Position numbers and translations under genes: made by a program. A DNA stretch of 64,000 nt from Qipengyuania sp. ABI-127-1. GTDB lineage: Bacteria > Pseudomonadota > Alphaproteobacteria > Sphingomonadales > Sphingomonadaceae. The notes under the pieces were generated by a model, which saw only the letters and a list, made by a program, of their open reading frames with translations, did no database searches and was not told where the DNA came from. The DNA is taken from positions 558,001-622,000 of the forward strand of contig JALJCR010000001.1 of NCBI GenBank assembly GCA_022953095.1, in the 5' to 3' direction. Below are positions 24,585-64,000 of this stretch, piece by piece (position 1 is the stretch's first letter; the number at the start of each line of letters is the position of its first letter).

Positions 24585-24587
24585 CAG

Positions 24588-44643: not shown

Positions 44644-44865
44644 TCAGTCCAGCTTCTCGTCGCTGGCCTTTTCAGCTCTTTCATCGAGCCGGAAGACAAC
44701 TGCGATGACGATCGTCGTGAAGATGATTCCGACAAGCTGCCAGACCATCGGGAATGGTAACGAGAAAGGTCGCCAAGCGATGTCATTGATCAGCGGTGCG
44801 CCGCCGACCTGCCAAAGGAAGGGCAGAAGCAGTAGCCAGCGGTGCCGATAGTCGCGCGCCGTCAC
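44644..44865 (-). CDS. DUF3311-type small membrane protein, symporter partner
   Basis: A 73-residue protein with two membrane helices (HRWLLLLPFLWQVGGAPLI and MVWQLVGIIFTTIVIAVVF) and a charged C-terminal tail. Start is GTG 44865, overlapping the DUF885 stop by GTGA; the longer frame to 45291 is not real. Proteins of this type commonly precede sodium:solute symporters and are thought to be small subunits. Translationally coupled to both neighbours. Confidence 0.75.
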   Translation of the reverse strand: MTARDYRHRWLLLLPFLWQVGGAPLINDIAWRPFSLPFPMVWQLVGIIFTTIVIAVVFRLDERAEKASDEKLD

Positions 44866-46679
44866 GAGCCAGCCATCCCGCCGCCGGCCGCGATCCAGTT
44901 CGCGACCTTGGTTTCCAGTACATCCATCGGTAAACACCCGGTGCCGATGACCTGATGATGGTAGTCGCGCACGTCGAACCGTTTGCCCAGGCGCCGAGAA
45001 GCACGGTCTCGAAGCTCCCGTATCTTCAATTCGCCAACCTTGTAAGCGCAGGCTTGACCTGGATGAGAGATGTATCGGTCGATCTCGACTGCGACGTCGC
45101 GCGGCGCCATCGAGGTGTTGGCGAGCATGAACTCTATCGCCTTCTGTCTGCTCCATCGTTTCGCATGAATGCCGGTGTCCACCACCAACCGCACGGCGCG
45201 CAGCATGGCCATGTCGTAGTGGCCGAAAAGCTGCATCGGGTCTTTGAACATGCCCAGTTCCGGCCCCAGAGATTCGGCATAAAGACCCCACCCCTCGATG
45301 AACGCGGTGGCCTTGCCTTTCTGCAGGAGTTCGGGAAGGGCCTCATCCTCTTGTGCAAGCGTCGTCTGAAAGTGGTGTCCAGGAATGCCCTCATGCAAGG
45401 TAAGCGTTTCCAGCGTCGGGATCGGGCGCGTGTCGAGCATCGACATATTGAAGAAGAGGATGCCCGGAGACTTTCCGTCTGGCGGTCCTGTCCGGTAATA
45501 TCCAGTACCCCGCTGATCACCCAGCGCGGGTAATGCCCGCACTTCGAAAGGTGCCTTCGGGCTGTGATGAAACAACTGGGGAATGTTCGGCCAAATGCGT
45601 GCCTCAATCGCTTCGAAGCGATCGATCAGTTCCTCGGGAGTCTTACAGTAGAATTCCGGATTGGTGCGAATGTACTCAAAGAACGCCTTCAGGTCGCCTT
45701 CGAAGCCGACTGTCTGCCGTACCTGCTCCATTTGCTTGCGGATGCGGGACACTTCAGACAGGCCAAGGTCATGAATTTCATCGGGAGTTTTGGTGGTCGT
45801 GGTGTGCCGGGCAAGTTCCCACGCATAAAGCGCGCTGCCGTCCTTCATGGCCCAGCGCCCCGGTTCCGATGAAGCCCGAGGCAAATATTCGTCTCGCAGA
45901 AATGTCCGCCATGATCCGTATGCAGGATAGATCGCATTTTCGATCCTCGCACGATAGAGCTTCTCGAGCTCCTTGCGATCGGTACCGGTGATCGATGCGG
46001 GCATCCGTTTTATCGCGAACCAGAACGGACTGTCTTCAATCGGCATCGCCAGCATCGCGTCGACCTGGCCCAGGACATTCTCGATCAAAACGCGCGGCTG
46101 GCGATAACCAGCAGCCAGACCCTCCCGCGCCTTGGTCACGACGTTAGCCATATAGGCGGCGAACCCATCCAAGCGTGCGAGATTCAGCCCATAGTCCGCA
46201 AGAGTATCGAAGCGCGCCGATCCTCCGGACATGTAATCGGGAAATTCCACATGCATCCCGAAAGACGCATCGAAGGGGGCAAGGGTCTGCACATCGAACA
46301 GCCCCCGGTCGAACAGTGTAATCGTCTGACTCAGGTAATAGTCGAATACGTCGTATGCGATGGCCTCGACTGCGCTTAGCGCCGTGCGATCGATCGCCTT
46401 GAGGGCTTCGCTCTCTTCGCGGCGAAAGGCACTCAGTCTATCGCGATAGAAGTCAGAGTAGGGATCGACGAAAGCGGGACCCGTTGCCGTGGTATGTACT
46501 TGCTTGCTGGACAGTGGGTGGAGCCTTGCGTCACGCGCTGCGCTCAATTCCAGCAGGCTGCGCAGGCGGGCGGAGGCGTCCCTTGTTTGCGCGAAGGCCA
46601 TGGAGGGAACAAGCGCACTAGACGCCATCAACATCATGGCATGCCTTCGGGACAGGACAAACTTACTGTGCTGAGACAT
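44862..46679 (-). CDS. DUF885 metallohydrolase, exported (paralogue 1)
   Basis: A 605-residue DUF885 protein. The N-terminus, SRRHAMMLMASSALVPSMAFAQ, is a twin-arginine-like export signal. The catalytic core has HEGIPGHHF, the likely zinc site, with the first His at about residue 429 and Glu next to it, then GKATAFIEGWGLYAESLG; the C-terminal ISHPGQACAYKVGELKI is also conserved in the family. The family is thought to be related to metallocarboxypeptidases, but few members have been assayed. It is first in a leftward operon with DUF3311 and the symporter, so it may cut a peptide outside and supply the product to that transporter. A LysR-type palindrome lies upstream. Confidence 0.85.
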   Translation of the reverse strand: MSQHSKFVLSRRHAMMLMASSALVPSMAFAQTRDASARLRSLLELSAARDARLHPLSSKQVHTTATGPAFVDPYSDFYRDRLSAFRREESEALKAIDRTALSAVEAIAYDVFDYYLSQTITLFDRGLFDVQTLAPFDASFGMHVEFPDYMSGGSARFDTLADYGLNLARLDGFAAYMANVVTKAREGLAAGYRQPRVLIENVLGQVDAMLAMPIEDSPFWFAIKRMPASITGTDRKELEKLYRARIENAIYPAYGSWRTFLRDEYLPRASSEPGRWAMKDGSALYAWELARHTTTTKTPDEIHDLGLSEVSRIRKQMEQVRQTVGFEGDLKAFFEYIRTNPEFYCKTPEELIDRFEAIEARIWPNIPQLFHHSPKAPFEVRALPALGDQRGTGYYRTGPPDGKSPGILFFNMSMLDTRPIPTLETLTLHEGIPGHHFQTTLAQEDEALPELLQKGKATAFIEGWGLYAESLGPELGMFKDPMQLFGHYDMAMLRAVRLVVDTGIHAKRWSRQKAIEFMLANTSMAPRDVAVEIDRYISHPGQACAYKVGELKIRELRDRASRRLGKRFDVRDYHHQVIGTGCLPMDVLETKVANWIAAGGGMAGS

Positions 46680-46814
46680 TACGCGCTTCTCCCAAATCGC
46701 GATGATCCCGCGAATGGTAGCGTGGCTTCCGTGAACCTCCAGTATGGATCTGGAGCGAGAAATTCTGGAAAAATAATATAGAACAATTGCTTATGGGTGA
46801 AATGATCTCCTATG

Positions 46815-46829
46815 TTGCGTTCAGTGCAA
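46815..46829. promoter_or_regulatory. LysR-type palindrome upstream of DUF885-1
   Basis: TTGCG-TTCAG-TGCAA, flanked by G and C so the outer arms GTTGC/GCAAC also pair. It is 136 bases before the DUF885-1 start. Confidence 0.6.
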
Positions 46830-46999
46830 CGATTTGTCAGCATTGTGCACTTTTAGCGCATCGATGAAGCTGCTCCCTCTCCCCGCCGGTTCGGTCTCCT
46901 TGCCTTTGGGAGAAGCAGCAACGGCATCATCAAACTTCACCTGTCGGGGCTTCAGTAGTTGCAGCCGCGCATTTCCATACGAACTTCCCACTCATTAAT

Positions 47000-47014
47000 T
47001 TGCGTTAGGCGCAA
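47000..47014. promoter_or_regulatory. LysR-type palindrome upstream of NTF2-like gene
   Basis: TTGCG-TTAGG-CGCAA, a perfect 5-bp-arm palindrome 109 bases before the NTF2-like start. It is the fourth copy of this motif in 9 kb. Confidence 0.6.
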
Positions 47015-47122
47015 CAAAATCCACTGTTCGATGTCATTGAAACAAATTCGTAACTGACTGAAACTCCGCAGCAGTCGCGTCACTGTGCCATCTTGGCGAA
47101 GGCGCTTTGGAGAATTCGGTCA

Positions 47123-47665
47123 ATGAAGCGAGTTCGTACTGCAATTGCCGGTTTGGTGGCTGCTACGCTGTGTTTTAGCACTCAGGTTCATGCTGAGTCG
47201 AAGAAGGCACCGGGGCCTTCTTCGGACCCTGAGCGCCGTGCTGGGAAAGAGGCTCCGGCCATCGATATCCTTTCGCGCATGTTCATCTGGTGGAACGGTG
47301 CGTACACCGTGCCGGGTTCCTATACCGAAGAGGCCTTCTCCGCGTTTTTCACGCCCGATGCGACACTCACGCTCAATGGGCGCAGATCGATCACCGGCGT
47401 GGCGCAATGGGCCGAGCGGTTCCAAGACATTCAGGCGCTGGGGGGCGAGGTGGAGATCGTGGTGCCTTTCAAGGTCGTCTTCGCAGCGGATGACAAGATA
47501 TATACATATCATGTCATCCGCTCGCGCCGGACCGAAGGCATCGGCTGCATGTTGGCCGCAGGTCACGCCACGGTCCGAGATGGGCTTATTGCGTCGATCG
47601 ATCTGGTCCGATCCGAGCTAACTCCCGAACAAAGGCGGGTTGAACCGCTGTGCTGGCAGAGCTGA
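47123..47665 (+). CDS. exported NTF2/SnoaL-like protein
   Basis: A 180-residue protein from ATG 47123 (a TTG at 47093 in frame is unlikely). A signal peptide ends QVHAES. The mature domain reads FIWWNGAYTVPGSYTEEAFSA, FTPDATLTLNGRRSITG, AQWAERFQDIQALG and IEIVVPFKVVF-like strands: a cone-shaped NTF2/SnoaL fold with a central pocket. Cys in IGCMLA and near the end (LCWQS) could pair in the periplasm. Such proteins can be enzymes or ligand-binding. It is 94 bases before the TonB receptor and likely co-transcribed; perhaps a periplasmic helper. Function unknown. Confidence 0.65.
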   Translation: MKRVRTAIAGLVAATLCFSTQVHAESKKAPGPSSDPERRAGKEAPAIDILSRMFIWWNGAYTVPGSYTEEAFSAFFTPDATLTLNGRRSITGVAQWAERFQDIQALGGEVEIVVPFKVVFAADDKIYTYHVIRSRRTEGIGCMLAAGHATVRDGLIASIDLVRSELTPEQRRVEPLCWQS

Positions 47666-47759
47666 TCGATACTCTGTCGCGTTCTCATGCCCCGGTCAGG
47701 GCGACTTTCAATCGGTGCAATCACATTTCATTCGATAATTCCAAAAGGGGAGACTGATC

Positions 47760-50039
47760 ATGAGGTCGAGTATCAACGTGCGGAGGCTGCGCACAATTCT
47801 GCTCACATCGGCATTGCCCGCAGTCGCAGTCGCCGGTGTCGCGACGCCGGTTTCGGCACAGGACGTGGACGACGAAGGCCTTACGGATCAAGTCATCATC
47901 GTAACGGCGCAGCGCCGCAGCGAATCGATCCAGGACGTCCCAATTTCCATCACCGCGCTCGGGGCCGAACAGCTCAAGGATCAAAACGTTAACGGCGTCG
48001 ATGATGTCTTCGCAATGACGCCGAACGTCGCGTTTCAATCCAACGGCTCACGCGATCGCAAGGATCTCTCTATCCGCGGCATTTCCAACCAGCTGAACCC
48101 CTATGCCGATGTGCGTCAGTCGAGCTACGCCTTCTATATCGACGAATTCAGCGTCGTTGCCGGTACCAGCAACCCGCAAATCGTCGACCTTGAGCGGGTC
48201 GAGGTGCTGCGCGGACCCCAAGGCACTTACTTCGGGCGCAACGCGGTTGGGGGGGCGATCAACGTCGTTACCAAGAAGCCGGTAGATTATTTCGAAGCTA
48301 ATGCCCAGCTGGGCTATGCCAGCTTCGACACGAAGCGCGCACAGGGCATGATAAATATCCCCGTGGTCGAGGGTTTGCTCGCGATCCGAGCTTCTGGCCA
48401 GTACGAGAAGTCCGACGGGTATATCCGCAACATCAATCCGATCGGCGGCGGCAACGACAGTGAATACTACACCGGTCGCATTCAGGCGCGCCTGACGCCG
48501 CTCGACAACCTGACCTGGGACTTTACCTATAGCTATTCGGACGAGACACTCGGCATGCGTAACGGTGTGCCGACCGGCTTTGTCACGCGTACGTGGGCGG
48601 CGGTCTATTATGGAGCAACCGCCGGCCTGATCGCCGATCCCGACGGCGTCGGTTTCTTCCCGGAAAACACCAACGAAGTGAACTTCAACCGTCCGCAGGA
48701 GGTCGGGAGCACGTTCGAATACTACAGCTCACGCGCCGTCTGGGATTTCGGTCCGGTCGAAGCCACTCTCGTTGCCGGCCATCTGGAATCGGATCTGTTC
48801 AATTATGGTGATGTTGATGGTGGCAGTATAGATTTCTTTTACGAAAATCTTCTGTTGCACCGCGAATCGACGAGCGGCGAGCTTCGCTTGCAATCTACCG
48901 GAAGCCATTTTTTCGACTGGAGCTTCGGCGCCTTCTACGGCAAGGACACCGGCGATAGCGATCAACAGACTTTCCATGGAGCGGACAGCCCGCTTTGCCC
49001 CGCCTCCACCAATGGCGATTGCGAAGGCTTTGAAGTGACGGGTGGGGAAGGCTTCAGTACATCGCGATACTTCGCATTGTTTGCCCAAGGCACTCTGAAC
49101 TTCACCGATCAGCTCTCGGCCACTGCGGGCTTACGCTATTCTTGGGAAAAGGTGACGAACACTTCGCAGACATCTTCTAACACGATCATCACCGGCACGA
49201 ACGATCGGTCCGCCACGTTTGAAGATATCTCGCCCAAGTTCACACTGACCTATAAGCCGAACCCCACGCTCATGATCTATGCGACCGCATCGCGCGGCTT
49301 CAAATCGGGCGGCACCCAAACCAGCAATTCGGCCCAACTGCGCAACGAATTCGATCCGGAAACGCTCTGGAACTACGAAGTGGGCGCTAAGTTCGATTTG
49401 TTTGACAATCGCGTACGCGTCGACATCACTGGCTTCTACATGGACTGGAAGGATGTCCAGCAAACGATCCGTTTCCAGTTCATCGATCCGGGCTCTGGCC
49501 TGCTGCGTGGCGTCAGCGGTATCGCCAATGCTGCATCAGCGGAGAGTTACGGATTGGAAGGCAGCTTCAACGCCAGCCTTACACCGCGATGGACGCTCGC
49601 AGGACAGCTTGGCTACAACAAGTCGAAATACAGGGATTATCCGAACGCGCTGATCGATGGACAGATTCTTGATCTCACGGGGCAACAGCTAACCACGGCC
49701 CCGAAATGGACCGCCGGTGCCCAAACGCAATACACCCTCCCGCTCGGCTCTTTCGAGGGGTTCGTTCGCGGGGAATGGAGCTATCGCTCCAAGATGATCT
49801 CTAACCCATATTATTACCTCTACAAGGCTGTGCCCGGTGAACCGTTCCTCAGCCCCAGCTATCATAATGTGAATCTTCGACTGGGCTTCGAGAACGACAG
49901 CCTTCGCGTGGTTGGCTACGTCGAGAACCTGTTCAAAGCCAAATACTACGCGAACGCCTATGAGAAAGCGTTTTACAGTGGTTCGCAGGTCGAGCCGTCT
50001 TTCCGCGAGTTCGGCATCAGCGTAGGCTATTCGTTCTAA
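47760..50039 (+). CDS. TonB-dependent outer membrane receptor (4)
   Basis: A 759-residue receptor with a signal peptide ending TPVSAQ, TonB-box-like IIVTAQRRSES, and a plug with LSIRGISNQ, ERVEVLRGPQGTYFGRNAVGG and INVVTKKP. Barrel landmarks include LTYKPNPTLMIYATASRGFKSGG, and it ends VGYSF. It stands between the NTF2-like gene and a DUF885 gene, downstream of two LysR-type palindromes, so it likely imports the substrate of this region. Start ATG 47760 has GGGGAGACTG upstream. The ligand is unknown; peptides are the context-based guess. Confidence 0.93.
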   Translation: MRSSINVRRLRTILLTSALPAVAVAGVATPVSAQDVDDEGLTDQVIIVTAQRRSESIQDVPISITALGAEQLKDQNVNGVDDVFAMTPNVAFQSNGSRDRKDLSIRGISNQLNPYADVRQSSYAFYIDEFSVVAGTSNPQIVDLERVEVLRGPQGTYFGRNAVGGAINVVTKKPVDYFEANAQLGYASFDTKRAQGMINIPVVEGLLAIRASGQYEKSDGYIRNINPIGGGNDSEYYTGRIQARLTPLDNLTWDFTYSYSDETLGMRNGVPTGFVTRTWAAVYYGATAGLIADPDGVGFFPENTNEVNFNRPQEVGSTFEYYSSRAVWDFGPVEATLVAGHLESDLFNYGDVDGGSIDFFYENLLLHRESTSGELRLQSTGSHFFDWSFGAFYGKDTGDSDQQTFHGADSPLCPASTNGDCEGFEVTGGEGFSTSRYFALFAQGTLNFTDQLSATAGLRYSWEKVTNTSQTSSNTIITGTNDRSATFEDISPKFTLTYKPNPTLMIYATASRGFKSGGTQTSNSAQLRNEFDPETLWNYEVGAKFDLFDNRVRVDITGFYMDWKDVQQTIRFQFIDPGSGLLRGVSGIANAASAESYGLEGSFNASLTPRWTLAGQLGYNKSKYRDYPNALIDGQILDLTGQQLTTAPKWTAGAQTQYTLPLGSFEGFVRGEWSYRSKMISNPYYYLYKAVPGEPFLSPSYHNVNLRLGFENDSLRVVGYVENLFKAKYYANAYEKAFYSGSQVEPSFREFGISVGYSF

Positions 50040-50094
50040 GACCAGCTGCCTGGCGCGGCAATGCACGCGCTGCGATACCGGAAGGAATGAAATC

Positions 50095-50122
50095 GCCGGT
50101 GGGAGATTTGTCTTCCACCGGC
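50095..50122. other. hairpin between TonB receptor 4 and DUF885-2
   Basis: GCCGGTGG and CCACCGGC form a perfect 8-bp stem with a 12-base loop, ending 19 bases before the DUF885-2 start. It may be a partial terminator or processing site that separates receptor and enzyme expression. Confidence 0.45.
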
Positions 50123-50141
50123 ACCATGAGGAGATCGGGTC

Positions 50142-51956
50142 GTGCCGAGTGACAGAAGGAAATTTCTGAAGATTTCAGCTTCGGCCGGAATGGCTTTGGG
50201 TTTCGCGTCGCGCCCAGGGAGTGCTCTGGCGCACAGCAATGATGCTATGCTCGAAGCTCTGCTTCAAAGCCATTGCGAGAAGTTTCTTGCCCGGTCACCC
50301 GAAGAAGCAACGGCTGCAAACTTCGACATAGGCCCAAATGGCTATCTGCGGGCCAGGCTCGATGATCGCTCGCTGGCCGCGCGTGACCGTGATCAGCGCG
50401 CGGTCAAAGACGCTTTGGCACAGCTTAGAGCCGTACCCGTTCAAAGTCTCTCGCAGCGAGCCGCGCTTGATCGGGACGTTGCGCTCTACGTGTACGAAAC
50501 GCTGGATCGCCTGCTTGGCTTTTACGGCTATGCAGATCTGAACCTACGGCCCAGCCCGTATGTCGTCAGCCAGATGAACGGTGCCTATTACTGGCTGCCC
50601 GATTTCATCGGTAGTCGCCACCCGATCACTGATGGGGCCGATGCGGAAGCCTATTTCGACCGTCTTTCCGGACTCGCGATCGCGCTGGATCAGGAAAGCG
50701 CTCGCATTCGGCATGATGCTGCCATCGGGGTGGTTCCGCCCGAATTCGTGATCGAGAAAACCATCTCGCAAATCAAGAACTTGCGCGACGGGCCGCCGCT
50801 CGCCTCGGCGCTTCTCGCACCCGCGATCGCGAGGATGGAGGCGCTCGACAGGCGGGGCGATGCCGAGCGGGCGACGAAGATTTTCCGGCAGATCATCCAG
50901 CCAGCGCTTACCCGGCAGATCGAGGCGCTCGAAGCCGTCCGTGCGCAAGCGGTCGATACGGCCGGGGTCTGGCGCCTGCCCGACGGCGATGCCTATTATG
51001 CAAGCGCGGTGCAGGCGAATACGACGACAGACATCGCGCCGCACGATCTGCATGCGCTCGGCCTAGAACAGTGCGCATCGCTGCTTTCCCAAATCGACGC
51101 GCTGCTCAAGGCCCAAGGCATGAGCCAGGGTACTGTCGGCGAACGCATTGCCGCTCTTAATGCGGATCAGCGCTTCAAGGTAAGCAATGACGATGCGGGA
51201 CGCGAGAAATTGCTGGAGCTTGCCCGCCGCCATGTCGAGAATATAACCGCCAGACTGCCCGAAGCCTTTGGCAGTACTGCAGTCAATCCAATCGTCGTCA
51301 GACGTATTCCCGTTGCTGTCGAGGCGGGAGCACCCGGAGCATTCTATAGCGAAGGAGCCCCTGGTGAGCCGAGCGTCTATTCGTTGAACCTGCGAAACCC
51401 TGCGGAACACTCGCTCTGGCGGTTGCCGACATTAACGCATCACGAGGCCGTGCCCGGACATCATTTCCAGTATAGCGTGCTTGCCCATGCACCGTCTTTG
51501 CCGCTCTTCCGCAGGATAGTCAGATTTTCGGCCTATACCGAAGGGTATGCCCTCTACGCCGAGCAGGTAGCGGCAGAGCTCGGCATTTTCGACGACGATC
51601 CCTTCGGGCGTATTGGCGAACTGCAATCGCAATTGTTCCGCTCAGCGCGCATCGTGGTGGATACCGGCCTGCATCACAAACGCTGGACGAAAGATGAAGC
51701 GATCCGGTGGATGGTCGACAACGCAGGCGAACAGCCGCTTTCGACCGAACGCGAAGTGACCCGCTATTCGGTTTATCCAGGCCAGGCATGCAGTTTCAAG
51801 GTCGGTGCCACGCGCATTGTCGAGAGCCGCGAGGCAGCTCGCGAAAAGATGGGAGCACGCTTCGATATTCGCAAATTCCACGATTTGATCCTCACCTCGG
51901 GGCCGATGCCCATGGCGGTGATGGAAAGGGCCGTGCAGCAATGGGCCGAAGCCTGA
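50142..51956 (+). CDS. DUF885 metallohydrolase, Tat-exported (paralogue 2)
   Basis: A 604-residue DUF885 protein starting at GTG 50142. The N-terminus, DRRKFLKISASAGMALGF, is a classic twin-arginine signal, so it folds (probably with metal) before export. The active-site motif is THHEAVPGHHF, with the zinc-site His at about residue 434, and the second conserved motif is EGYALYAEQ. Near the end, VYPGQACSFKVGATRIVESRE is equivalent to the stretch in paralogue 1. It is downstream of TonB receptor 4 and 25 bases upstream of an exported amidohydrolase, which suggests periplasmic stepwise hydrolysis of an imported molecule. Confidence 0.87.
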   Translation: MPSDRRKFLKISASAGMALGFASRPGSALAHSNDAMLEALLQSHCEKFLARSPEEATAANFDIGPNGYLRARLDDRSLAARDRDQRAVKDALAQLRAVPVQSLSQRAALDRDVALYVYETLDRLLGFYGYADLNLRPSPYVVSQMNGAYYWLPDFIGSRHPITDGADAEAYFDRLSGLAIALDQESARIRHDAAIGVVPPEFVIEKTISQIKNLRDGPPLASALLAPAIARMEALDRRGDAERATKIFRQIIQPALTRQIEALEAVRAQAVDTAGVWRLPDGDAYYASAVQANTTTDIAPHDLHALGLEQCASLLSQIDALLKAQGMSQGTVGERIAALNADQRFKVSNDDAGREKLLELARRHVENITARLPEAFGSTAVNPIVVRRIPVAVEAGAPGAFYSEGAPGEPSVYSLNLRNPAEHSLWRLPTLTHHEAVPGHHFQYSVLAHAPSLPLFRRIVRFSAYTEGYALYAEQVAAELGIFDDDPFGRIGELQSQLFRSARIVVDTGLHHKRWTKDEAIRWMVDNAGEQPLSTEREVTRYSVYPGQACSFKVGATRIVESREAAREKMGARFDIRKFHDLILTSGPMPMAVMERAVQQWAEA

Positions 51957-51981
51957 CAGACTTCGAACGGGAGTGACGATA

Positions 51982-53304: not shown

Positions 53305-53495
53305 TTGCGAAGTAGGACGCCAAGTATATCCAATGCCTTAGCATGGTTGGCTGTCATCAACATGCCACGGAGGGAATTGGGTCCATCCCAAGCCCCGATA
53401 GCATTCCGGTATGGTTCGAAATACCCACATACCGACGTGGGGAACTGGCTGGGTTCACGCGCCATCGCCCTGGCGAGATCGTTTCCCGGTGCGGT

Positions 53496-55202
53496 TCAGT
53501 CTCTTCCCAAGACTTCGGCAAGCGGAGTGTGAGGCCAGAGCATCTGAATCTCGTCGTCATACCCCGTCAGATCGTAACGGAGAAGCGAGACGGGCAAACG
53601 ACCCGTTCCCATCAGATAGTCGTGAAAGTCCCTGATCGAGAAGGCATCACCCAGTTGGCGTTTCCGGTCGGCCAAGAGTTTCTGCAACTGCATGGCACCA
53701 ATGGTATAGGTCATTCCATACCCGGGAGGGCGGCGAATGTAGATGCCGGCATCGACGCGCGCGACGTTTTCGTCGAGATAGGGCGTCCAGCCTTGCCAGT
53801 ACGCCATGGTTTCGGCCACGGACATTTCGTTGCGTTGCATTTTGACGTCGCCAACCGTCCGTGCCGCGCGGAACAGGCCGAAGATATAGATCAACTCGCG
53901 CGTGCGAGGTCGATCATCGAAGAGACCAAGCTGAAGGGCGGTTTCTTCCAGATAGAACCCCCAACCTTCCGTGCGCCCGCTATCGCTTATGTTGCGGCGG
54001 ATGGGGTGCGACACGTGCCGTGCCATAATTCCATCGAAACGATGGCCCGGGAAGGTTGCGTGGAGATGATCGGGTGATGCATCGCGAAACTGGATCTGCT
54101 CCCAGAACATTGGCCCGTCCGGTCGCACGATCCAGGGCGCGTTATATCCCATTTCCCGATAGTTATCGGGAATATAGTCGGGAATGGAGACGATCTCCTC
54201 GTCAATCAGCCACTGACGGATTTTCGCGTCGGTTCCGGCGAGCTGTTCTTCGTACTCTTCGGCCGATAGCGGAAGTTCCAGCTCGGGCAGATTGCGGTTG
54301 CGATGACGCTCGGTAGTGTAGTTTGCCCAGTGGCGCTGCAATTCGCGCTCGGCAAGCGTGACGATCTGGTCGGAATCGTAGGGCATCAGCCGCACATTGG
54401 TAAGGAACCAGTCGTATGCCTCGCGTCCCACTCCCGCCCGAGCCGTCATTTCCGGGCGGGACGCGACCAGCCAGTCTTTGAATTCAACAATTGCCGTTTG
54501 GGCGTTGATTATATCGGCGACCAGTTGCGGTTGCTGGACAGTCGCCCGGGCACGAAGATCTGCAAACCAGCCTATCGCGCCCTCAGGCTCTACGGCACGA
54601 TACGGCATGCCATGCCCGACACCATCGCCGTGCGAAAGGCTGTGTATGGCAAGATCGGCGTAGTCCGCAGCGACAGAATCAAGGTTGATACGCGCTTGAG
54701 CAAGATATCTGGGGATGACCTTTATCTGCGCTTGGAACTCACTCAGTTCGTTTCCTTGCAGTGGCAATTCAATATAAGCCAAGCGCTGCACCTCGTCGAC
54801 GTACATGCCAGGATCGCGTGCCCAGGGCTTGGTCACGCTGAACGTAAAATCCGCAAGATCCATCTGCGCCCGAATTGCCAGATAGTCGACCTGCCGATGG
54901 CGATCCCAGTCGGCTACTGCAAAACCCGGTAACTGCGTCTGGAATGCCCGCAGTTCCTCCTTGCGCCTCTCCACCGTTGATGGGCTGTAGTCGATGACGC
55001 CCTCTACCGGCTGCGGGGTGCGCCATTCGTGGAAAGCGGCGAATAGGGCGACGAGCTCCTCGTACGGCCGCTCCCCGGCTGGAATGTTGCTTTCGGGCGC
55101 TGCCTCGTCGGGGCGCTCTGCTGGCGTCGAAGCGTTCGCTGCCGTCGGCATGACTGTTCCGGCAAGCAGAATCGCGGCGGTCGTAATAGCAATATCGCGC
55201 AT
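53496..55202 (-). CDS. DUF885-family protein with altered active site, exported (paralogue 3)
   Basis: A 568-residue DUF885 protein with a Sec signal peptide (ends PTAANAS). Family landmarks remain: EGWGFYLEE and the C-terminal YGMTYTIGAMQLQKLL. The zinc motif is changed: where paralogues have HExxPGHHF it reads HATFPGHRF (first His at about residue 381). Glu is replaced by Ala and the second His by Arg, so normal metallopeptidase catalysis is doubtful; it may bind peptides, use other residues or regulate. It is convergent with the amidohydrolase (191 bases apart) and divergent from TonB receptor 5, sharing a 443-base promoter region with it. Confidence 0.82.
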   Translation of the reverse strand: MRDIAITTAAILLAGTVMPTAANASTPAERPDEAAPESNIPAGERPYEELVALFAAFHEWRTPQPVEGVIDYSPSTVERRKEELRAFQTQLPGFAVADWDRHRQVDYLAIRAQMDLADFTFSVTKPWARDPGMYVDEVQRLAYIELPLQGNELSEFQAQIKVIPRYLAQARINLDSVAADYADLAIHSLSHGDGVGHGMPYRAVEPEGAIGWFADLRARATVQQPQLVADIINAQTAIVEFKDWLVASRPEMTARAGVGREAYDWFLTNVRLMPYDSDQIVTLAERELQRHWANYTTERHRNRNLPELELPLSAEEYEEQLAGTDAKIRQWLIDEEIVSIPDYIPDNYREMGYNAPWIVRPDGPMFWEQIQFRDASPDHLHATFPGHRFDGIMARHVSHPIRRNISDSGRTEGWGFYLEETALQLGLFDDRPRTRELIYIFGLFRAARTVGDVKMQRNEMSVAETMAYWQGWTPYLDENVARVDAGIYIRRPPGYGMTYTIGAMQLQKLLADRKRQLGDAFSIRDFHDYLMGTGRLPVSLLRYDLTGYDDEIQMLWPHTPLAEVLGRD

Positions 55203-55645: not shown

Positions 55646-58474
55646 ATGGTGAGTGAGAACGCTATAGGCTTTGGTGCGGCGCTTAAGGGGACTTCGGCGC
55701 TATTTCTCTCGATGGCCGTAGTCAGCACGGCGACGGCACAAGAGGCGCCGAGCGCAGCAGAGTCGATCGTTGTCACCGGCTCGCGCATTCCCCGCCCCGA
55801 TGTGGAATCGAACAGCCCGGTCAACGTCATCGGGGAAGAAGAAATCAAGCTCTCCGTCACCAGCGAAACCGAGCAACTCCTTAATGCGCTACCACAAGCG
55901 GTTGCCGGTGCAGGCGCGCAATCCAACACCGGAAATGGGTCGGCCACGGTTAATCTTCGCGGACTTGGCACCGTGCGTACGCTGGTCCTTCAGAACGGTC
56001 GACGAATCGTGGGGGCCTCGCAGGATGGCGTCGTCGATCTCAATATGATCCCGCCGTCACTGGTTTCGCGGATCGAAGTCGTCACCGGCGGCGCGTCGGC
56101 CGTTTACGGTTCGGACGCTATGGCCGGTGTGGTCAACTTCGTCATGAGGGACGACTTCGAAGGCCTTGAGATCGGTGGTTCGTACGGCATTAGCGACGAG
56201 GGCGATGCCGCGCGCTACAATTTCGACATGACGGCGGGTGGCAATTTTGCCGACGGTCGCGGTAATATCGTGTTTCACGGAAGCTACTACAATCGCGCTC
56301 AGGTCAAGGGCGTAGCGCGTGATCACGCGCTGGATTATTTTGCCGATGCGATCATCGACGGCAAACCGGTACTGGTCGAGTCAGGCAATGGTGTGACGCC
56401 TCAGGGTACGATCTTCTCGCCCGAACTGGTCGGGCTGACCGATCCCTATGGCAATACGATCGGGACTGCCGGCATCTTCTTCGCGCCAGAGGGCTGGCGC
56501 GCCTATCGACCGAGCGATGGCTTCAACGATCGCCCGTACACCAACCTCCAGATGCCCATGGAGCGCTGGCAGGGTTCGGTTCTGGGTCACTACGACGTAG
56601 CCAATGGTGTAACGGCGTTCTGGGAGGGGTCGTATGTCCACAGCAAGATTAATTCCACGCTAGGCGCTGTCCCCATGAGCAGTTCGGGCTTCATCCCCGG
56701 TTTCCAGCTCGACTTGCGCAATCCCTACCTCGATCCAACGCTGCGTGAATTCCTCAGCGACAATATGGATGATGATGGGGACAGCCTCGTCCCGGTCAAT
56801 ATCAATCGCCGCCTTCTCGACGGTGGTTCGCGCACCAGCGACCAGACGCGTGACTTCTGGCGTTTCGTTGTCGGGCTCAAGGGCGAGTTGACCGACAGGC
56901 TTTCGTGGGAGGTATTCTTTAACCAGGGGCAAACGAAGGTCACTGACGTGCAGGGCGGCGGTGTCCTTGTCGACAATTTTGCGAACGGCTTCCTCACCGA
57001 TCCCAACGACCCCTTTAGCTGTGCCACGGATGATCCAGCGTGCGTCGTTCTCAATCCTTTCGGTCTCTACTCAATGACGCCGGAAATGATCGACTACATT
57101 TACACTGATCTGACCAATATCACCACGATCAAGCAGAAGCAGGTCGGGGCCAGCCTTACTGGAACGCTGTTTACACTACCGGCTGGCGATGTCGGTATCT
57201 CGCTCGGGACGGAGTATCGCAAGGAAAGCTCGTCCTTCGATCCCGATCAGCTCTATGTCATGGGCAAGGCGCTCTCGCGGTCCGCAGGGCTGAGCCCCAC
57301 GGCGGGTTCGTTCGATGTGGTCGAAGGATATGGCGAGCTTTATGTTCCGATCCTGGCTGACATGCCTGGCATACGGCTGCTGGCGTTCGAAGGCGGGGTG
57401 CGTTTCTCGGATTATTCGACGGCCGGTTCGGTCTGGTCGTACAAGCTTGGCGGAGAGTACTCGCCGTTCGACGGCCTGAAATTCCGCGGGCTTTATCAGC
57501 GGGCGGTGCGTGCGCCGAATGTGGTGGAGCTCTTTTCGGGTGCGACCAACACCGCTCCTCAGGCGGTCGACTTCTGCAACGCTACCCCCGAACGTACCGC
57601 TGCCGAGCGGGACTTCTGCGTCAATGCGCTGGGTGTTCCGGGCGGAGTGATCGATGTTTTTCAGCAGGAAAACCAGCAGATCCGCGCGGTTACGGGCGGT
57701 AATCCCAACCTGCAGGAAGAAACCTCCGACACGTGGTCGGTCGGTGCGGTGATACGCCCCGATTTCCTTCCCGGCCTTCAGCTCACAGTCGACTATTACA
57801 ATATCAAGATCGAGGATGCGATCGGCTCTTTCGGTGGCGGTCTCCAGTCCGTGATTACCGCCTGCAATGCCGACATGTCGCTCGAGAATGTGTTTTGCGT
57901 CCCTCTGCGCAACCGCACCCCCGACGGTCAGCTTTATGACGTACCGCTGCTCAACGCCAATATCGCAAAAATGGAGGCGCGCGGCGTCGACTACCGTCTG
58001 GACTATCGCCACGATCTCGCTGCTTCGTCGTTGAACTACTATATTGCCGGTACGTACCTCATCGACAATATTTCGCAGGGCAGCCCCATTGTGAACCCGG
58101 TAAACTGCGCTGGCTATATTCGTGGCGGAAGCTGCGGAACGGCCAGCCCGAAGTGGCGCTTTACCCAGCGGCTAACTTGGGAGGCAGACAGGTTGCAACT
58201 TTCGTTGCGGCACCGGTTCATCGGCTCGGCCACGGACGGGCGGATCGCTGGCGCGAAAGCGTCTGGCGCCCAACCGCCAGCCTTGGCCGTACCTGAAACC
58301 GGCGACGTGCATTATTTCGATCTGAGTGCCTATTACGACGTCGTCGATAATTTCACCTTCTTCGCAGGGATCGATAACGTGCTGGACGAGGACCCGCCGT
58401 TCTATCTCTACGAACGTGAAACCTACGACGCTATCGGGCGCCGATTTACGATCGGATTCAGGGCGGACTTCTGA
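55646..58474 (+). CDS. TonB-dependent outer membrane receptor (5)
   Basis: A 942-residue receptor of the VTGSRI type: signal peptide ending TATAQE, then SIVVTGSRIPRPDVESNSPV, LLNALPQAV, NLRGLGTVRTLVLQNGRRIVG, RIEVVTGGASAVYGSDAMAGV. The barrel contains LYQRAVRAPNVVELFSG and ends IGFRADF. It closely follows the plan of receptor 3. It is followed by a strong hairpin and then the S9 peptidase and DUF885-4 genes, so it is the probable uptake gate of a peptide-degrading unit (inference). Cys-containing surface loops are present in the barrel. Confidence 0.93.
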   Translation: MVSENAIGFGAALKGTSALFLSMAVVSTATAQEAPSAAESIVVTGSRIPRPDVESNSPVNVIGEEEIKLSVTSETEQLLNALPQAVAGAGAQSNTGNGSATVNLRGLGTVRTLVLQNGRRIVGASQDGVVDLNMIPPSLVSRIEVVTGGASAVYGSDAMAGVVNFVMRDDFEGLEIGGSYGISDEGDAARYNFDMTAGGNFADGRGNIVFHGSYYNRAQVKGVARDHALDYFADAIIDGKPVLVESGNGVTPQGTIFSPELVGLTDPYGNTIGTAGIFFAPEGWRAYRPSDGFNDRPYTNLQMPMERWQGSVLGHYDVANGVTAFWEGSYVHSKINSTLGAVPMSSSGFIPGFQLDLRNPYLDPTLREFLSDNMDDDGDSLVPVNINRRLLDGGSRTSDQTRDFWRFVVGLKGELTDRLSWEVFFNQGQTKVTDVQGGGVLVDNFANGFLTDPNDPFSCATDDPACVVLNPFGLYSMTPEMIDYIYTDLTNITTIKQKQVGASLTGTLFTLPAGDVGISLGTEYRKESSSFDPDQLYVMGKALSRSAGLSPTAGSFDVVEGYGELYVPILADMPGIRLLAFEGGVRFSDYSTAGSVWSYKLGGEYSPFDGLKFRGLYQRAVRAPNVVELFSGATNTAPQAVDFCNATPERTAAERDFCVNALGVPGGVIDVFQQENQQIRAVTGGNPNLQEETSDTWSVGAVIRPDFLPGLQLTVDYYNIKIEDAIGSFGGGLQSVITACNADMSLENVFCVPLRNRTPDGQLYDVPLLNANIAKMEARGVDYRLDYRHDLAASSLNYYIAGTYLIDNISQGSPIVNPVNCAGYIRGGSCGTASPKWRFTQRLTWEADRLQLSLRHRFIGSATDGRIAGAKASGAQPPALAVPETGDVHYFDLSAYYDVVDNFTFFAGIDNVLDEDPPFYLYERETYDAIGRRFTIGFRADF

Positions 58475-58482
58475 GTGATGGT

Positions 58483-58522
58483 ACCCGACCGCGCCGACGA
58501 GGCGTCGGTGCGGTCGGGTGTT
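58483..58522 (+). terminator. long hairpin terminator after TonB receptor 5
   Basis: ACCCGACCGC (58483-58492) pairs with GCGGTCGGGT (58510-58519), and the inner GCCGACG/CGTCGGT extends the stem to 17 pairs with one wobble and the loop AGG. GTTT follows. It may reduce read-through into the peptidase genes 37 bases later. Confidence 0.65.
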
Positions 58523-58558
58523 TACGTGGTCTGAAGTGCAGGAGGGGAGTTTCCGCAG

Positions 58559-60796
58559 ATGGGCAGGTTTGGATTGATCCGGGCGTTCGGAACGGCGGTG
58601 ACGCTGTTTCTGGCTACAGCTGCTGTGGCTGGCAATGAAATGTCTAGCCAGCAGGCGGTGCCGGGCGATACTGCGGAAGTCGCTGGAACGACTCTGTCGA
58701 TCGGCGAACTCTATCGCTATCAGAGCCTGATCGGCACGACGCCTGAAGGTTACAGTTGGTCGCGCGACAGCGACACTGTTCTCTTTCTGTGGAATGATCA
58801 AGGTTACAGCTTTCGCGATGTCTGGACCTATTCGGTGCGGACCGGGGAAAAAACCCGGTTGACCTTTCTGGGGCAAGATAGCGATCCTCACGCGGAACGA
58901 CCGGGCATTTCCCAAGCCGTGATGCTGGGTGACAGGCGGGTGGCCCTCACTCTCGACGGAAAACTCCATATTCGCGAACCCGACGGGTCGGTTTCCCCGC
59001 TCGAAACCGACAAGCAGGCGGTACGCGGCCTCACTGTATCGCCCGACGGAAAATGGCTTGCTTTTGTTTCGGGTAGCCCGGTGGATATCCGCAATCGTGT
59101 CACTCTGGGCGGGGAACTGTGGATTCGCGCAACGGAGGATAGAAGGGAGAGTTCCGCCCGGCGTCTGGTTGGTAGTGATGATCCCAAGATATACGTTCAG
59201 GATTACGAGTGGGCGGACAATAGTGGGTCTATCGTATTTAATCATTCCGACGATCGCGCAATGCCCGAGCGTGACATCTATTTTTATGCCGATGGCGAGT
59301 TGCAGAACAACCGTGTGATCCGGGCTTTCCCGGGCGATGAAACAACGCGCGCGCGCATAGGCTTGGTCTCGTTGGCTTCGAACGAGATTCGGTATTTCGA
59401 TCGGCCCGATCCCAAGCATCACATATGGGGTTACGGTCTGTCGGGCGATGGCAAGCGACTCTTCATCAGCGGTTCGGACCTCGAGGCCAAAGAACACACG
59501 ATTTATCTTTACGATGTGGGAAGCGGGGCCCGCGAAACATTCTATCAGCTTGATGACCCCCGCCATCTGCGACCCGATTGGCAAGTCGACTGGGCACCGG
59601 ACGACGAAGGTTTGATCATTTTGACCGACCGCGATGGCTGGTTGCAGCTCTATCATCAGCGCAATGCCGGTGAACAGCCGCGCCAGATTACCCAAGGCGA
59701 TTGGGAGATCGAATCCTTTGCGGTCGATAGCACGACAAATTCGCTCTACTTCACCGCGAACAAATCGCACCTGGCCGATCGCCAAATCTATCGCGTGCCT
59801 GCCGCTGGTGGCGAGGTGGAGCGTGTTTCAGGGAGTGCGTCTGGAACTCACCAACCGGTCTACTCGCCCGATTTCAGCCACATCGCTGACTGGTACAGCA
59901 GCGATACGATGCCGCCCGAACTGTTCGTGATCGATACGGACAGACCGCGAGAGGCGACAAGAGTCACCCGTTCGCCACAACCGGAATTCTACGACCAGAC
60001 ATGGGCGGATACACGGTACGTCGAATTTCCAAGCCATGTGGACGGCATGAATCTGGTCGCCCGTCTCAGCGTGCCGGCCAATTTCGACCCGACGCGGCGC
60101 TATCCGGTAATCGTTGGGTCGGTTTATTCGGATGCCGTGCGCAATCAATGGGGCGGTCGGCGGTCGCATCCGACCTGGGGACTGGACCAGTATCTGGTAG
60201 GACAGGGCTACCTGATAATCAGCGTAAATGTCCGTGGATCATGGGGGCAGGGGCGTGAACACAATCAGACCCAGCTGCACAGCTACGGTGGAACCGACAT
60301 CGACGATCTGGAAAGCGGTGTGCGATATCTGATCGCGCAAGGCCACGCCGACCCAGACCGTGTCGGGATTTGGGGGTCCAGCTACGGCGGCCTGATGACC
60401 ATCATGTCGCTGGCCAAGAAGCCGGATGTATATGCTGCGGGCATCGCAGGAGCGCCGGCCACCAATGTCTGGCATGCCTACCCCTCGCAGATGTGGATCA
60501 TGGGGCCGCCTGAGGGTGACGACATGCCTGCGCGCTACGAGGCACAGTCGCCTCTCTATCACGCCGAAGGTATCGAAGATCCGCTGATGATTATTCACGG
60601 TTCGCGCGATCCGGTGGTGCTTTATTCCGACACGATCGCGCTGGCCGAAGGAATGATCGAACGGGAGCAGATGTTCGAATTGGTGACCTTGCCGGGCGCC
60701 CATCACGGCTGGGATCTTGAAAGCCTGCCTCAGACCCGGTTCTCGTTTCGCAAAATGATCGATTTTTTCGACCGCAACGTGAAGAACAGGAAATAG
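58559..60796 (+). CDS. S9-family serine peptidase (prolyl oligopeptidase / DPP IV type), exported
   Basis: A 745-residue S9 peptidase with a Sec signal peptide (ends ATAAVAG). An N-terminal beta-propeller of about 450 residues (SWSRDSDTVLFLWN, LTVSPDGKWLAF, WAPDDEGLIIL) is followed by the catalytic alpha/beta-hydrolase domain. The nucleophile is in GIWGSSYGGLMT at Ser608, the acid is Asp684 in GSRDPVVLY, and the His is in GAHHGWD (715/716). S9 enzymes cut oligopeptides, often after proline. Start ATG 58559 has GGAGGGGAG upstream. The stop is 1 base before the DUF885-4 start, so the two are one transcription unit. Confidence 0.9.
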   Translation: MGRFGLIRAFGTAVTLFLATAAVAGNEMSSQQAVPGDTAEVAGTTLSIGELYRYQSLIGTTPEGYSWSRDSDTVLFLWNDQGYSFRDVWTYSVRTGEKTRLTFLGQDSDPHAERPGISQAVMLGDRRVALTLDGKLHIREPDGSVSPLETDKQAVRGLTVSPDGKWLAFVSGSPVDIRNRVTLGGELWIRATEDRRESSARRLVGSDDPKIYVQDYEWADNSGSIVFNHSDDRAMPERDIYFYADGELQNNRVIRAFPGDETTRARIGLVSLASNEIRYFDRPDPKHHIWGYGLSGDGKRLFISGSDLEAKEHTIYLYDVGSGARETFYQLDDPRHLRPDWQVDWAPDDEGLIILTDRDGWLQLYHQRNAGEQPRQITQGDWEIESFAVDSTTNSLYFTANKSHLADRQIYRVPAAGGEVERVSGSASGTHQPVYSPDFSHIADWYSSDTMPPELFVIDTDRPREATRVTRSPQPEFYDQTWADTRYVEFPSHVDGMNLVARLSVPANFDPTRRYPVIVGSVYSDAVRNQWGGRRSHPTWGLDQYLVGQGYLIISVNVRGSWGQGREHNQTQLHSYGGTDIDDLESGVRYLIAQGHADPDRVGIWGSSYGGLMTIMSLAKKPDVYAAGIAGAPATNVWHAYPSQMWIMGPPEGDDMPARYEAQSPLYHAEGIEDPLMIIHGSRDPVVLYSDTIALAEGMIEREQMFELVTLPGAHHGWDLESLPQTRFSFRKMIDFFDRNVKNRK

Positions 60797-60797
60797 C

Positions 60798-62471
60798 ATG
60801 CTGCGTGCATTGATTAGCCTTGCCGCAGCAGGGGCCGCATTACTGGCCGCGCCAGCGACCGCAACGGAGCCGGCGGTGCAGGAGCTGGGAGCTGAATTCT
60901 GGGCATGGCGCGCAACCACGCAGCCGACCACGAGCGATGACATACCCCGCATCGAACGCCCCAGTGGCTGGGTTCCCGATTGGTCGCCACAAGCCGTTGC
61001 TCGGCAGAGGGATGTATTGCGCCAGTTTGAGGCACGCTGGACCCGCCTCGCGGATGAACCCAGAAATGTCAGCCATTCGGTTGACTACAGGCTCGTCGGT
61101 TCGGCCCTCGCACGAGTCCGCTGGGAATTGGATCATGTCGCGGCATGGCGGCGGCAGCCGCACTTCTATATCGCGCAAGCCTTCACGCCGATATTCGAAG
61201 TGCTTTTGCCTCCCCCCCCGGTCGAAAAGGAGCGCATCGAGCGGGTCGTGCGCTTGCTGGAAAACGCGCCGGCGGTGTTTGCTGCCGCCCGGCACAATCT
61301 CGACGATATGCGGGACCCGTTCGTCGACGTCGCACTGACGCAACTCGGTGTGGTCCCGCGCAGTTTGCGCGGTATGATGGCGGGGCTGGAACCCCATGCC
61401 ACGCCGGAGCAGCGAAGAGCTCTGACCGCATCGGTCGAAAACGCCATTGCCGCGGCCGCGCAGTTTGGTGAGTTTCTCAAAAACAATCGGGACCGCCTGC
61501 CCGACAGCACCGCCGTGGGTGAGGAGAGTTATCGGTTTTTTCTGAGCGAGGTGGCGCTCTATCCCTTTTCGGCGGAAGAGCTGCTCGTCATGGGGCGGCA
61601 GGAATGGGCCCGTTCGGTGCTTTTCGAGGAATTGGAGCGTAATCGTAACGCGGGCGTGGCCGAACTCCCGATCGGCAGTTCGATAGACGCCGTCACCGCG
61701 CAGTTGAATGCCGACGAACTGGGCATTCGCCGTTTCCTGCGCGAACGCGGACTGCTGACAGTTCCCGATTGGGCGGGCCATTACAATGCACAGCCATTTC
61801 CGGCCTATCTGGCTCCAATCGGTTGGATGGGCAGGACTTTCGATCTGACCAGCCAGGGTCGGGTCGGGCAGAACGCCACCGTTTACCTGCCCGACCCGTC
61901 ACCTGACCTTGGCTATTTCAACCTGTCGATTACTCGAGATCCCAGACCGATCATTGTGCACGAAGGGGTGCCCGGTCACTTTTTCCAGCTCACACTGGGA
62001 TGGAAACATCCCAATCCATTGCGGCGTCATTACTATGACAGCGGCGCAAACGAGGGCACGGGATTCTATGCCGAAGAGATGATGCTGCAGGCGGGTCTTT
62101 GGGCCGATGCCCCCAAATCGCGTGAGATCATCTACAATTTCGCACGTGCACGGGCGTTGAGAGTTGAGGTCGACGTCAAGCTGGCACTAGGCGAGTTCAC
62201 CATTGCCGAGGCCGCAGACTATCTCGAAGCCATGGTGCCGATGGATCGTACCACGGCGGAGCATGAGGCGGTCTTTTTCGCCGCCGCGCCGGGGCAGGCA
62301 ATTAGCTATCAGATCGGTAAGATGCAGACCGCCGAGTTCCTCGCCGAAGCGCGTGTACGGGAAGGCGATGCTTTCGATCTGAAACGATTCCACGACTTCC
62401 TGTGGCTGAACGGAAATGTCCCGATCGCGCTGCAGAAGGAAGAGTATTTTGCAGCCACCGGGGCGGATTGA
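60798..62471 (+). CDS. DUF885 metallohydrolase, exported (paralogue 4)
   Basis: A 557-residue DUF885 protein starting 1 base after the S9 stop. The Sec signal peptide ends AAPATATE. The zinc motif is VHEGVPGHFF, with His at about residue 388; Glu and the PGH are kept, but the second His of HH is Phe. The partner motif is NEGTGFYAEEMML, and the end has APGQAISYQIGKMQ. It likely works in the periplasm on products of the S9 peptidase (inference). It is followed after 8 bases by the DUF3830 gene, then a permease, suggesting a four-gene unit of peptidase, DUF885, DUF3830 and transporter. Confidence 0.86.
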   Translation: MLRALISLAAAGAALLAAPATATEPAVQELGAEFWAWRATTQPTTSDDIPRIERPSGWVPDWSPQAVARQRDVLRQFEARWTRLADEPRNVSHSVDYRLVGSALARVRWELDHVAAWRRQPHFYIAQAFTPIFEVLLPPPPVEKERIERVVRLLENAPAVFAAARHNLDDMRDPFVDVALTQLGVVPRSLRGMMAGLEPHATPEQRRALTASVENAIAAAAQFGEFLKNNRDRLPDSTAVGEESYRFFLSEVALYPFSAEELLVMGRQEWARSVLFEELERNRNAGVAELPIGSSIDAVTAQLNADELGIRRFLRERGLLTVPDWAGHYNAQPFPAYLAPIGWMGRTFDLTSQGRVGQNATVYLPDPSPDLGYFNLSITRDPRPIIVHEGVPGHFFQLTLGWKHPNPLRRHYYDSGANEGTGFYAEEMMLQAGLWADAPKSREIIYNFARARALRVEVDVKLALGEFTIAEAADYLEAMVPMDRTTAEHEAVFFAAAPGQAISYQIGKMQTAEFLAEARVREGDAFDLKRFHDFLWLNGNVPIALQKEEYFAATGAD

Positions 62472-62479
62472 GGGGCATC

Positions 62480-63871: not shown

Positions 63872-64000
63872 CCGACAAAATAAGATAAAAGCCCGTTCGA
63901 CGGGCGAGCAGGAAAGTCACAGTGATGAAGTGGTACCCGCCATCGGGCAGCGACGGGAGATGCGGTCTTCCCGGCGGACGCATATCTCGTGCGAAGGCAA
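63872..64000. other. 3' end of window with small hairpin
   Basis: GCCCGT-TCG-ACGGGC (63891-63905) is a short hairpin 20 bases after the permease stop, preceded by AAAA, so it resembles a weak or bidirectional terminator. No gene was seen in the remaining bases. Confidence 0.45.

Follow-up and report, generated by a model that had tools for sequence, protein, structure and literature searches.

DUF885 genes in and beyond the window

A 64,000-nucleotide stretch of the genome of Qipengyuania sp. ABI-127-1 (hereafter the window) carries four genes of the DUF885 family, here called A to D, set among TonB-dependent receptors, peptidases, transporters and oxidoreductases. The window corresponds to C1:558001-622000 of a 3.15 Mb genome, and C1 coordinates are used past its end. 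An earlier note, made from the sequence alone, had drawn attention to this grouping and read it as a series of peptidases acting in the periplasm. The grouping itself is confirmed, and belongs to a larger island whose gene sets recur in other genera. The strongest result of our analysis is that this recurring uptake-and-degradation island contains a conserved DUF885 branch that lacks the motif glutamate.

The four open reading frames (ORFs) all score above the PF05960 gathering cut-off of 32.4 bits in Pfam (A 504, B 486, C 131, D 172). The genome as a whole holds 11 DUF885 genes (13 match rows in the PF05960 profile search, two genes being split), eight of which are clustered in 77 kb at C1:602904-679882, so that the window holds only part of them. 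Labels follow match starts: E (C1:624073) and F (C1:643021) are two more DUF885 genes beyond the window end, which bring the exported DUF885 proteins of the island to six, G and H form a pair 61% identical at C1:676521 and C1:678305, and I, J and K lie elsewhere. DUF885 matches were present in 40 of the 41 genomes searched, the source genome included, with 1 to 7 match rows per genome across 24 same-genus genomes. The density at the locus, together with the repetition of its gene sets in other genera, goes beyond chance. As the earlier note had described, A and B begin with twin-arginine-like signals (SRRHAMM and DRRKFLK, with the arginine pair repeated in their orthologs) and C and D with Sec-type signals, all judged by eye rather than with a predictor; the two receptors, the S9 peptidase, the amidohydrolase and the two transporters are likewise supported by Pfam, the SSF and SBF transporters lying just outside the span originally indicated. 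In the literature searched, which left most subscription journals outside its coverage, no assayed DUF885 member was found.

The four genes are separate subfamilies and not local copies, and none of the six DUF885 proteins of the island is a recent copy of another. Pairwise identities are 27% for A-B, 19% for A-C, A-D and B-D, 17% for B-C and 31% for C-D. In a tree of 94 proteins, built with a quick method and Shimodaira-Hasegawa-like approximate likelihood ratio test (SH-aLRT) support only, one half holds A, B and E, each in a clade of its own, and D is sister to C+F in the other, the C+F grouping having a support of 97. Long branches join the D clade to the canonical half and E to J in this tree, which makes the placement of D, E, J and K unsure; the grouping of each window gene with its orthologs from other genera is independent of these placements. 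The nearest kin of every window DUF885 gene are genes of other genera, not one another, and local tandem duplication is rejected on this nesting and on the 17-31% identities.

A DUF885 branch without the motif glutamate

A, B, D and E retain the motif HExxPGH, with its catalytic glutamate, and a downstream pair of glutamates; the motif is absent from C and F. The motif glutamate was taken as the mark of the usual chemistry, PF05960 membership being independent of it. Relatives of C were collected as the best 80 of 234 matches, that is, the closest relatives only, representing 79 loci which by record title belong to Sphingomonadales, other Alphaproteobacteria, Gammaproteobacteria, Gemmatimonadota and a few other groups. 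All 79 C-type proteins entered the motif count, and in 79/79 HAxxPGHxxD stands in place of HExxPGHxxQ. An alignment of five groups, which leaves out the truncated row L086 and the partial row L007, has HExxPGH in 29/29 canonical and 6/6 D-type rows, alanine in 20/20 C-type rows and asparagine in 7/7 F-type rows. A third Glu-less group, F2 (found for example in L085, L087, L049, L050 and L052-L059), has lost both the glutamate and the PG pair in 12/12 rows (HxxHW), with the histidine pair and the downstream glutamate kept.

The presumed metal-binding residues are preserved throughout: both histidines and the glutamate of YxE occur in 74/74 rows of the five groups, and H381, H387 and E419 of C are presumed metal ligands. 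H381, A382, P385, G386, H387, D390, R410, G413, W414, Y417 and E419 are invariant in 80/80 C-type rows; E412 lies outside the columns conserved at 97%. A His-His-Glu zinc site has been predicted with ZincSight for a DUF885 protein (PMC12572635).

Selection on these genes was estimated against L093, a record titled as an Anaerolineaceae metagenome-assembled genome (MAG), NAT117, which is 93% identical over 17 kb from window position 48223 to 1.2 kb beyond the window end; the record name is probably wrong. The ratio of nonsynonymous to synonymous substitution rates (dN/dS) ranges from 0.02 to 0.26 over nine genes, indicating purifying selection, with 0.144 for C, 0.151 for D, 0.087 for B and 0.018 for the module II receptor. 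The invariant residues, and a ratio for C like that for D, argue that C is conserved as a working protein. These data also bear on the view that C and F are pseudoenzymes, remnants in decay or without catalytic activity that survive as binding proteins. They have indeed lost a glutamate that every canonical and D-type row keeps; however, the same two replacements, alanine for glutamate and aspartate for glutamine, occur in every C-type relative examined, the histidines, E419, D390, R410 and W414 are retained without exception, and C is constrained about as strongly as D, all of which makes such a status unlikely. Since C and F keep the metal-binding residues and have lost the catalytic glutamate, we rather expect them to have a function other than ordinary Glu-assisted peptide hydrolysis. 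We tentatively suggest, as a possibility that falls somewhat short of an even chance, that they represent a widespread DUF885 branch with a rebuilt site (HAxxPGHxxD, HNxPGHxxD) that may act on an indolyl or nitrogen-heterocycle amide, either through a different metal-dependent reaction or through hydrolysis in which the base has moved, for instance to D390. The Glu-less branch offers a natural comparison for the role of the motif glutamate in DUF885.

The structure model of C (pLDDT 92.9, pTM 0.89) has the DUF885 fold, matching the family structures 3iuk, 3o0y and 3u24 with Z 31.8, 27.1 and 28.8 over 466-477 residues. These structures, whose entry titles name no activity, retain HE in alignment with A, which matches 3o0y at 238 bits; in this they differ from C and F. 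The next fold neighbours of C are the M32 carboxypeptidases 3hq2, 3dwc, 5giv and 1k9x (Z 11.3-12.7), followed by M3 oligopeptidases (up to Z 10.9) and ACE; identities to these neighbours are 9-12%. The spacing of the DUF885 motif HExxPGH differs from that of HExxH. DPP III (6eom) was rejected as a fold neighbour, having appeared only with a Foldseek E of 3.4. As for sampling, the folding list covered 66 of the 79 C-type proteins, those of 500-640 aa and free of N, and 53 of these are in set A2.

Two gene sets and their recurrence

The island begins at window position 38403, ends about 21.6 kb beyond the window (about 85.6 kb on the same numbering) and consists of two gene sets (Table 1). Module I comprises B, a TonB receptor, an NTF2-like protein, an amidohydrolase, A, an SSF symporter, a DHDPS-superfamily protein and a three-part FAD dehydrogenase. 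Module II comprises C, a TonB receptor, an S9 peptidase, D, a DUF3830 protein, an SBF symporter, an FAD oxidase and E, and continues with isatin hydrolase, IorAB, a monooxygenase of the salicylyl/2-aminobenzoyl-CoA type, an aminotransferase and F. In this genome module II is inverted against module I, and there is a single amidohydrolase gene, after B.

Table 1. Features of the window that belong to the island, in window coordinates.
Feature	Position	Strand	Basis and remarks
DUF885 A	44862..46679	-	Pfam; twin-arginine-like signal; HEGIPGHHFQ, canonical Glu
DUF885 B	50142..51956	+	Pfam; twin-arginine-like signal; HEAVPGHHFQ, canonical Glu
DUF885 C	53496..55202	-	Pfam; Sec-type signal; Glu-less active site
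DUF885 D	60798..62471	+	Pfam; Sec-type signal; HEGVPGHFFQ, canonical Glu
Altered active-site motif of C, H381-A-T-F-P-G-H387-R-F-D390	54033..54062	-	translation
EGWGFYLE of C, with E412 and E419	53934..53969	-	E419 the presumed third metal ligand, 80/80
Pyr_redox_2 + BFD-type [2Fe-2S] subunit of three-part FAD dehydrogenase	38403..39755	-	Pfam; with module I in G223 and G219, on other side in G089
Fer2_4 small subunit	39748..40038	-	Pfam; 55% identity in G223; no ORF called in G219 or G089
DAO-type FAD subunit	40017..41195	-	Pfam; below cut-off of every NCBIfam model listed
DHDPS-superfamily aldolase/dehydratase	41202..42122	-	Pfam; below cut-off of all 7 NCBIfam models listed
LysR regulator	42271..43215	+	Pfam; also in G223 and G219
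SSF sodium:solute symporter, MctP-like	43178..44641	-	Pfam; MctP-like 204 bits vs cut-off 625
Small exported protein, NTF2/SnoaL-like by eye	47093..47665	+	no Pfam match; start uncertain
TonB-dependent receptor (module I)	47760..50039	+	Pfam; 68-74% identity in G223, G219, G089
Exported amidohydrolase, Xaa-Pro dipeptidase / ochratoxinase-like group	51973..53304	+	Pfam, structure-sequence matches; metal motifs present
TonB-dependent receptor (module II)	55646..58474	+	Pfam; 71-79% identity in G223, G234, G089
S9 peptidase, DPP-IV-like	58559..60796	+	Pfam; GSSYGG, D, H motifs
DUF3830 protein	62402..62959	+	Pfam; listed ORF overlaps D, true start probably later
SBF-type sodium symporter	62969..63871	+	Pfam
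DAO-type oxidase ORF, L-pipecolate-oxidase-like	63922..64000, continues beyond window	+	228 bits vs cut-off 600

Both modules are found together in G223, a genome of another genus of the same family, with genes 55-87% identical to those of the island. The order there is B, TonB receptor, NTF2-like gene, two amidohydrolases, A, SSF, LysR, DHDPS, DAO, Fer2_4, PyrRedox and an unknown gene; then F, aminotransferase, monooxygenase, SDR, acyl-CoA enzymes, MarR, TPR-oxygenase, isatin hydrolase and IorAB; and finally E, MarR, DAO, SBF, DUF3830, D, S9, TonB receptor and C. The unknown gene is 41% identical to a 198 aa ORF at the same place here (window 37671-38267), which has no Pfam or NCBIfam match. 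G219 has module I, LysR included, without module II, and G234, of the same family, has module II without a close A. In G089 module I lies at a separate place, its SSF, DHDPS, DAO and PyrRedox genes being on the opposite side, and a LysR gene was not seen there. The genes for C, the receptor, S9, D, DUF3830 and SBF are kept together in G223, G234 and G089 (DUF3830 not being called as an ORF in the last), and the NTF2-like gene sits between receptor and amidohydrolase in G223, G219 and G089.

Among 296 genomes of the order, with at most the best four candidates scored per genome, A was found at E <= 1e-200 in seven, four of them with at least 61% identity; C was found in four with an identity of 74% or above. 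At these identities A and C co-occur in three genomes (G000, G223 and G089; Fisher p 3.7e-6, with cut-offs picked afterwards and kinship ignored, G223 and G089 being of one genus). Of the 79 C-type loci, 20 have the full set of S9, D, DUF3830 and SBF homologs no more than 10 kb from C, and 19 of these also have a receptor homolog; overall, receptor-like genes occur in 32 loci and F-type DUF885 genes in 16.

A rough clustering of the other neighbours, in which ORFs were taken longest first, some of them antisense, and C itself was retained in 72 of the 79 loci, returned an ABC ATPase in 12 loci, IclR in 10, a deacetylase-fold protein in nine, a class III aminotransferase in eight and DHDPS in seven (10 by the count that gave the receptor-like and F-type figures); names come from Pfam on the G219 cluster and, by eye, from sequence starts. 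Genes of the C or F type also stand with DHDPS, DAO, OYE, IclR, an ABC transporter or a deacetylase-fold protein in L085-L086 (G219:C2:125001-165000), L123, L135, L140, L148, L149 and L155, not every named gene being present in each. These clusters are a second, wider catabolic setting of the Glu-less branch, and the neighbours of C-type genes (IclR, ABC transporter, DHDPS, DAO, OYE, deacetylase-fold hydrolase, aminotransferase, aldehyde dehydrogenase) suggest the catabolism of nitrogen compounds. The deacetylase-fold protein of G219 scores below all NCBIfam cut-offs. A putative cyclic-imide hydrolase of a fungal nicotinate cluster is placed under the deacetylase fold in the account of PMC8478523, and a likeness to that enzyme is a lead only.

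Possible function and history of the island

For the function of the island we propose that the two modules, side by side, serve to trim and burn an indole- or anthranilate-bearing amide or peptide, a reading whose chances we hold to be evenly balanced. The TonB receptors would import an amide- or peptide-linked substrate, which would then be trimmed in the periplasm by the DPP-IV-like S9 enzyme, the amidohydrolase, and A, B, D and E acting as metal-dependent exopeptidase-like enzymes, with C and F in some role other than ordinary Glu-assisted hydrolysis. The pieces would be carried into the cell by the SSF and SBF symporters. The non-aromatic part might be opened by the FAD amine dehydrogenases, the aminotransferase and the DHDPS-type lyase, and the aromatic part, an indole or anthranilate unit, might be degraded by the monooxygenase of the salicylyl/2-aminobenzoyl-CoA type and its acyl-CoA enzymes together with isatin hydrolase and IorAB. 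Recurring modules of this kind give the DUF885 subfamilies partner genes and hence a testable substrate class.

The S9 protein resembles bacterial DPP-IV (189 bits to 2ecf and others), with its Ser, Asp and His motifs, and falls below the NCBIfam cut-off for Dpp5 (80 of 900 bits); a lasso-peptide isopeptidase was rejected (81.6 bits vs a cut-off of 400). The amidohydrolase falls near the Xaa-Pro dipeptidase / Arg carboxypeptidase / ochratoxinase group (177 bits to 2qs8, 163 to 3be7, 116 to ochratoxinase) and shares its HTH, K, H, H and D motifs; it reaches 269 bits against the cut-off of 500 for model NF051886.

The aromatic branch is suggested by the genes beyond the window. An isatin hydrolase gene, identified by its sequence match to 5nnb (362 bits over residues 1-256 of 257), lies 7.2 kb further on, at C1:629217-629990. 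IorA and IorB follow on the same strand, IorB with 643.5 bits against an NCBIfam cut-off of 348, and an FAD monooxygenase-OYE fusion lies at C1:638264-640564. This is presumably the build of 2-aminobenzoyl-CoA monooxygenase as well. The G223 ortholog of the fusion protein (83% identity over 763 residues) scores 1268.6 bits against 1078 for NF006101, salicylyl-CoA 5-hydroxylase, and a second monooxygenase above that cut-off (1166.6 bits) adjoins module I in G089. A review names 2-aminobenzoyl-CoA monooxygenase among the enzymes of anthranilate degradation (PMC6221969). With clusters for 2-aminobenzoyl-CoA or salicylyl-CoA the island shares the fusion protein, two acyl-CoA dehydrogenases, an SDR, a thioesterase and a gene that by eye resembles enoyl-CoA hydratase; unlike them it shows no CoA ligase among its ORFs of at least 300 aa. 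From this absence and the gene neighbourhood we propose that IorAB may convert isatinate (2-aminophenylglyoxylate) straight to 2-aminobenzoyl-CoA and so provide the entry; if so, free anthranilate would be bypassed on the way from isatin to the CoA pathway.

A close known counterpart of this part of the island is the iad auxin-degradation locus of Variovorax and Bradyrhizobium. As described in PMC9613470, iad loci convert indole-3-acetate to anthranilic acid by way of isatin and isatinic acid, with IorAB listed among their genes; two MarR regulators and the isatin to isatinic acid chemistry are common to both, as are genes of the IorA/IorB (IadA/IadB) kind, of which IorB passes its model here and IorA does not. 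Unlike iad loci, the island lacks the Rieske oxygenase IadC and joins exported hydrolases, TonB receptors and a CoA-type monooxygenase to these genes.

Several observations weigh against the proposal. IorA reaches 283 bits, below its NCBIfam cut-off of 650.9, and the monooxygenase model NF006101 is named for salicylyl-CoA. The island has no Rieske oxygenase, the upper half of the iad locus, the sole Ring_hydroxyl_A match of the genome lying about 0.75 Mb away (C1:1396971). No CoA ligase was found among island ORFs of at least 300 aa (Pfam, directly or via G223 orthologs); an AMP-binding gene at window position 829 is outside the island. The modules stand apart in G089 and alone elsewhere (I in G219, II in G234). 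The module II cluster of G089 has no IorAB, isatin hydrolase or monooxygenase, so that the DUF885 set can occur without that route. Homologs of A at 56-57% identity stand alone in G264, G266 and G156, so that A does not need module I, and 59 of the 79 C-type loci are without the surrounding module II set, 32 of these ending at contig edges. Finally, the M32 scores fall under the caution line of the tool (about 13) and may reflect a common helical arrangement.

That last point also concerns the view of the earlier note, that four peptidases of one family successively cut one complex peptide in the periplasm. Four exported paralogues do adjoin an S9 peptidase and an Xaa-Pro-type amidohydrolase, A, B, D and E retain HExxPGH and both downstream glutamates, and the fold recalls M32 carboxypeptidases, if weakly for a helical protein. 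However, C is Glu-less in all 79 relatives collected, and A/B and C/D belong to modules that occur singly or apart. The idea of a periplasmic processing set keeps its support from the recurring set of TonB receptor, S9, amidohydrolase and HExxPGH-bearing DUF885 genes, while a succession of four peptidases is improbable.

It is distinctly improbable, too, that the island has no functional unity and that a plastic site beside an rRNA operon (C1:648216-653367, about 4.7 kb beyond F) gathered unrelated catabolic genes. The G+C content of the island (0.57-0.61, vs 0.62-0.63 in three other stretches of the genome), a transposase domain at window position 28327 and the absence of most of the island from the same-genus genome G005 would agree with this; against it, the same gene sets occur in other genera and at other sites, three genomes have both, and the nine genes compared with L093 are under constraint. 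Low G+C is not confined to the island, however: values of 0.58-0.60, also below those of the other stretches, extend over the remaining window and the flank to its left.

Least probable, and rejected here, is a hydroxyproline (imino acid) operon in module I with A and B as prolinase-like enzymes releasing hydroxyproline: the amidohydrolase is close to Xaa-Pro dipeptidases and the set of DAO, Fer2_4, PyrRedox/BFD, DHDPS and symporter presumably resembles that of heteromeric D-hydroxyproline dehydrogenase and deaminase, but the genome has no match to the Pro_racemase family of 4-hydroxyproline epimerases, in a search that works, given strong matches in three of nine genomes tested, and DHDPS and DAO reach none of the specific NCBIfam models listed. 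As a candidate pyrroline-hydroxycarboxylate deaminase, the DHDPS protein has a superfamily match only, and the DAO/Fer2_4/PyrRedox trio also serves opine and other amine oxidases. The missing epimerase likewise tells against the proline- and hydroxyproline-rich substrates that had been suggested for the four proteins.

The history of the island within the genus can be followed in part. None of 59 further genomes of the genus has C; one weaker match (40-42%) occurs in each of G005 and G326, and among the matches listed for the 59 genomes none to A exceeds 48% identity. The weaker match in G005 is its F gene, which is 94% identical to F, begins at codon 32 and has lost the signal peptide. It is part of a scar (G005:C1:106179-108453, L200) in which F is joined to DNA matching window 27566-28289 and then window 35607-29259, the stretch between being missing. 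A truncated F joined to such DNA makes a deletion in G005 the likelier event there, rather than a gain in the source species alone.

The transposase domain mentioned above (DUF772, window 28327-29067) lies in the left half of the window. It adjoins another catabolic set at window 15800-28289, which comprises a DMFA2_C protein, a TonB receptor, a PLP decarboxylase, a glyoxalase-fold protein, an aromatic FAD hydroxylase and an FAA hydrolase.

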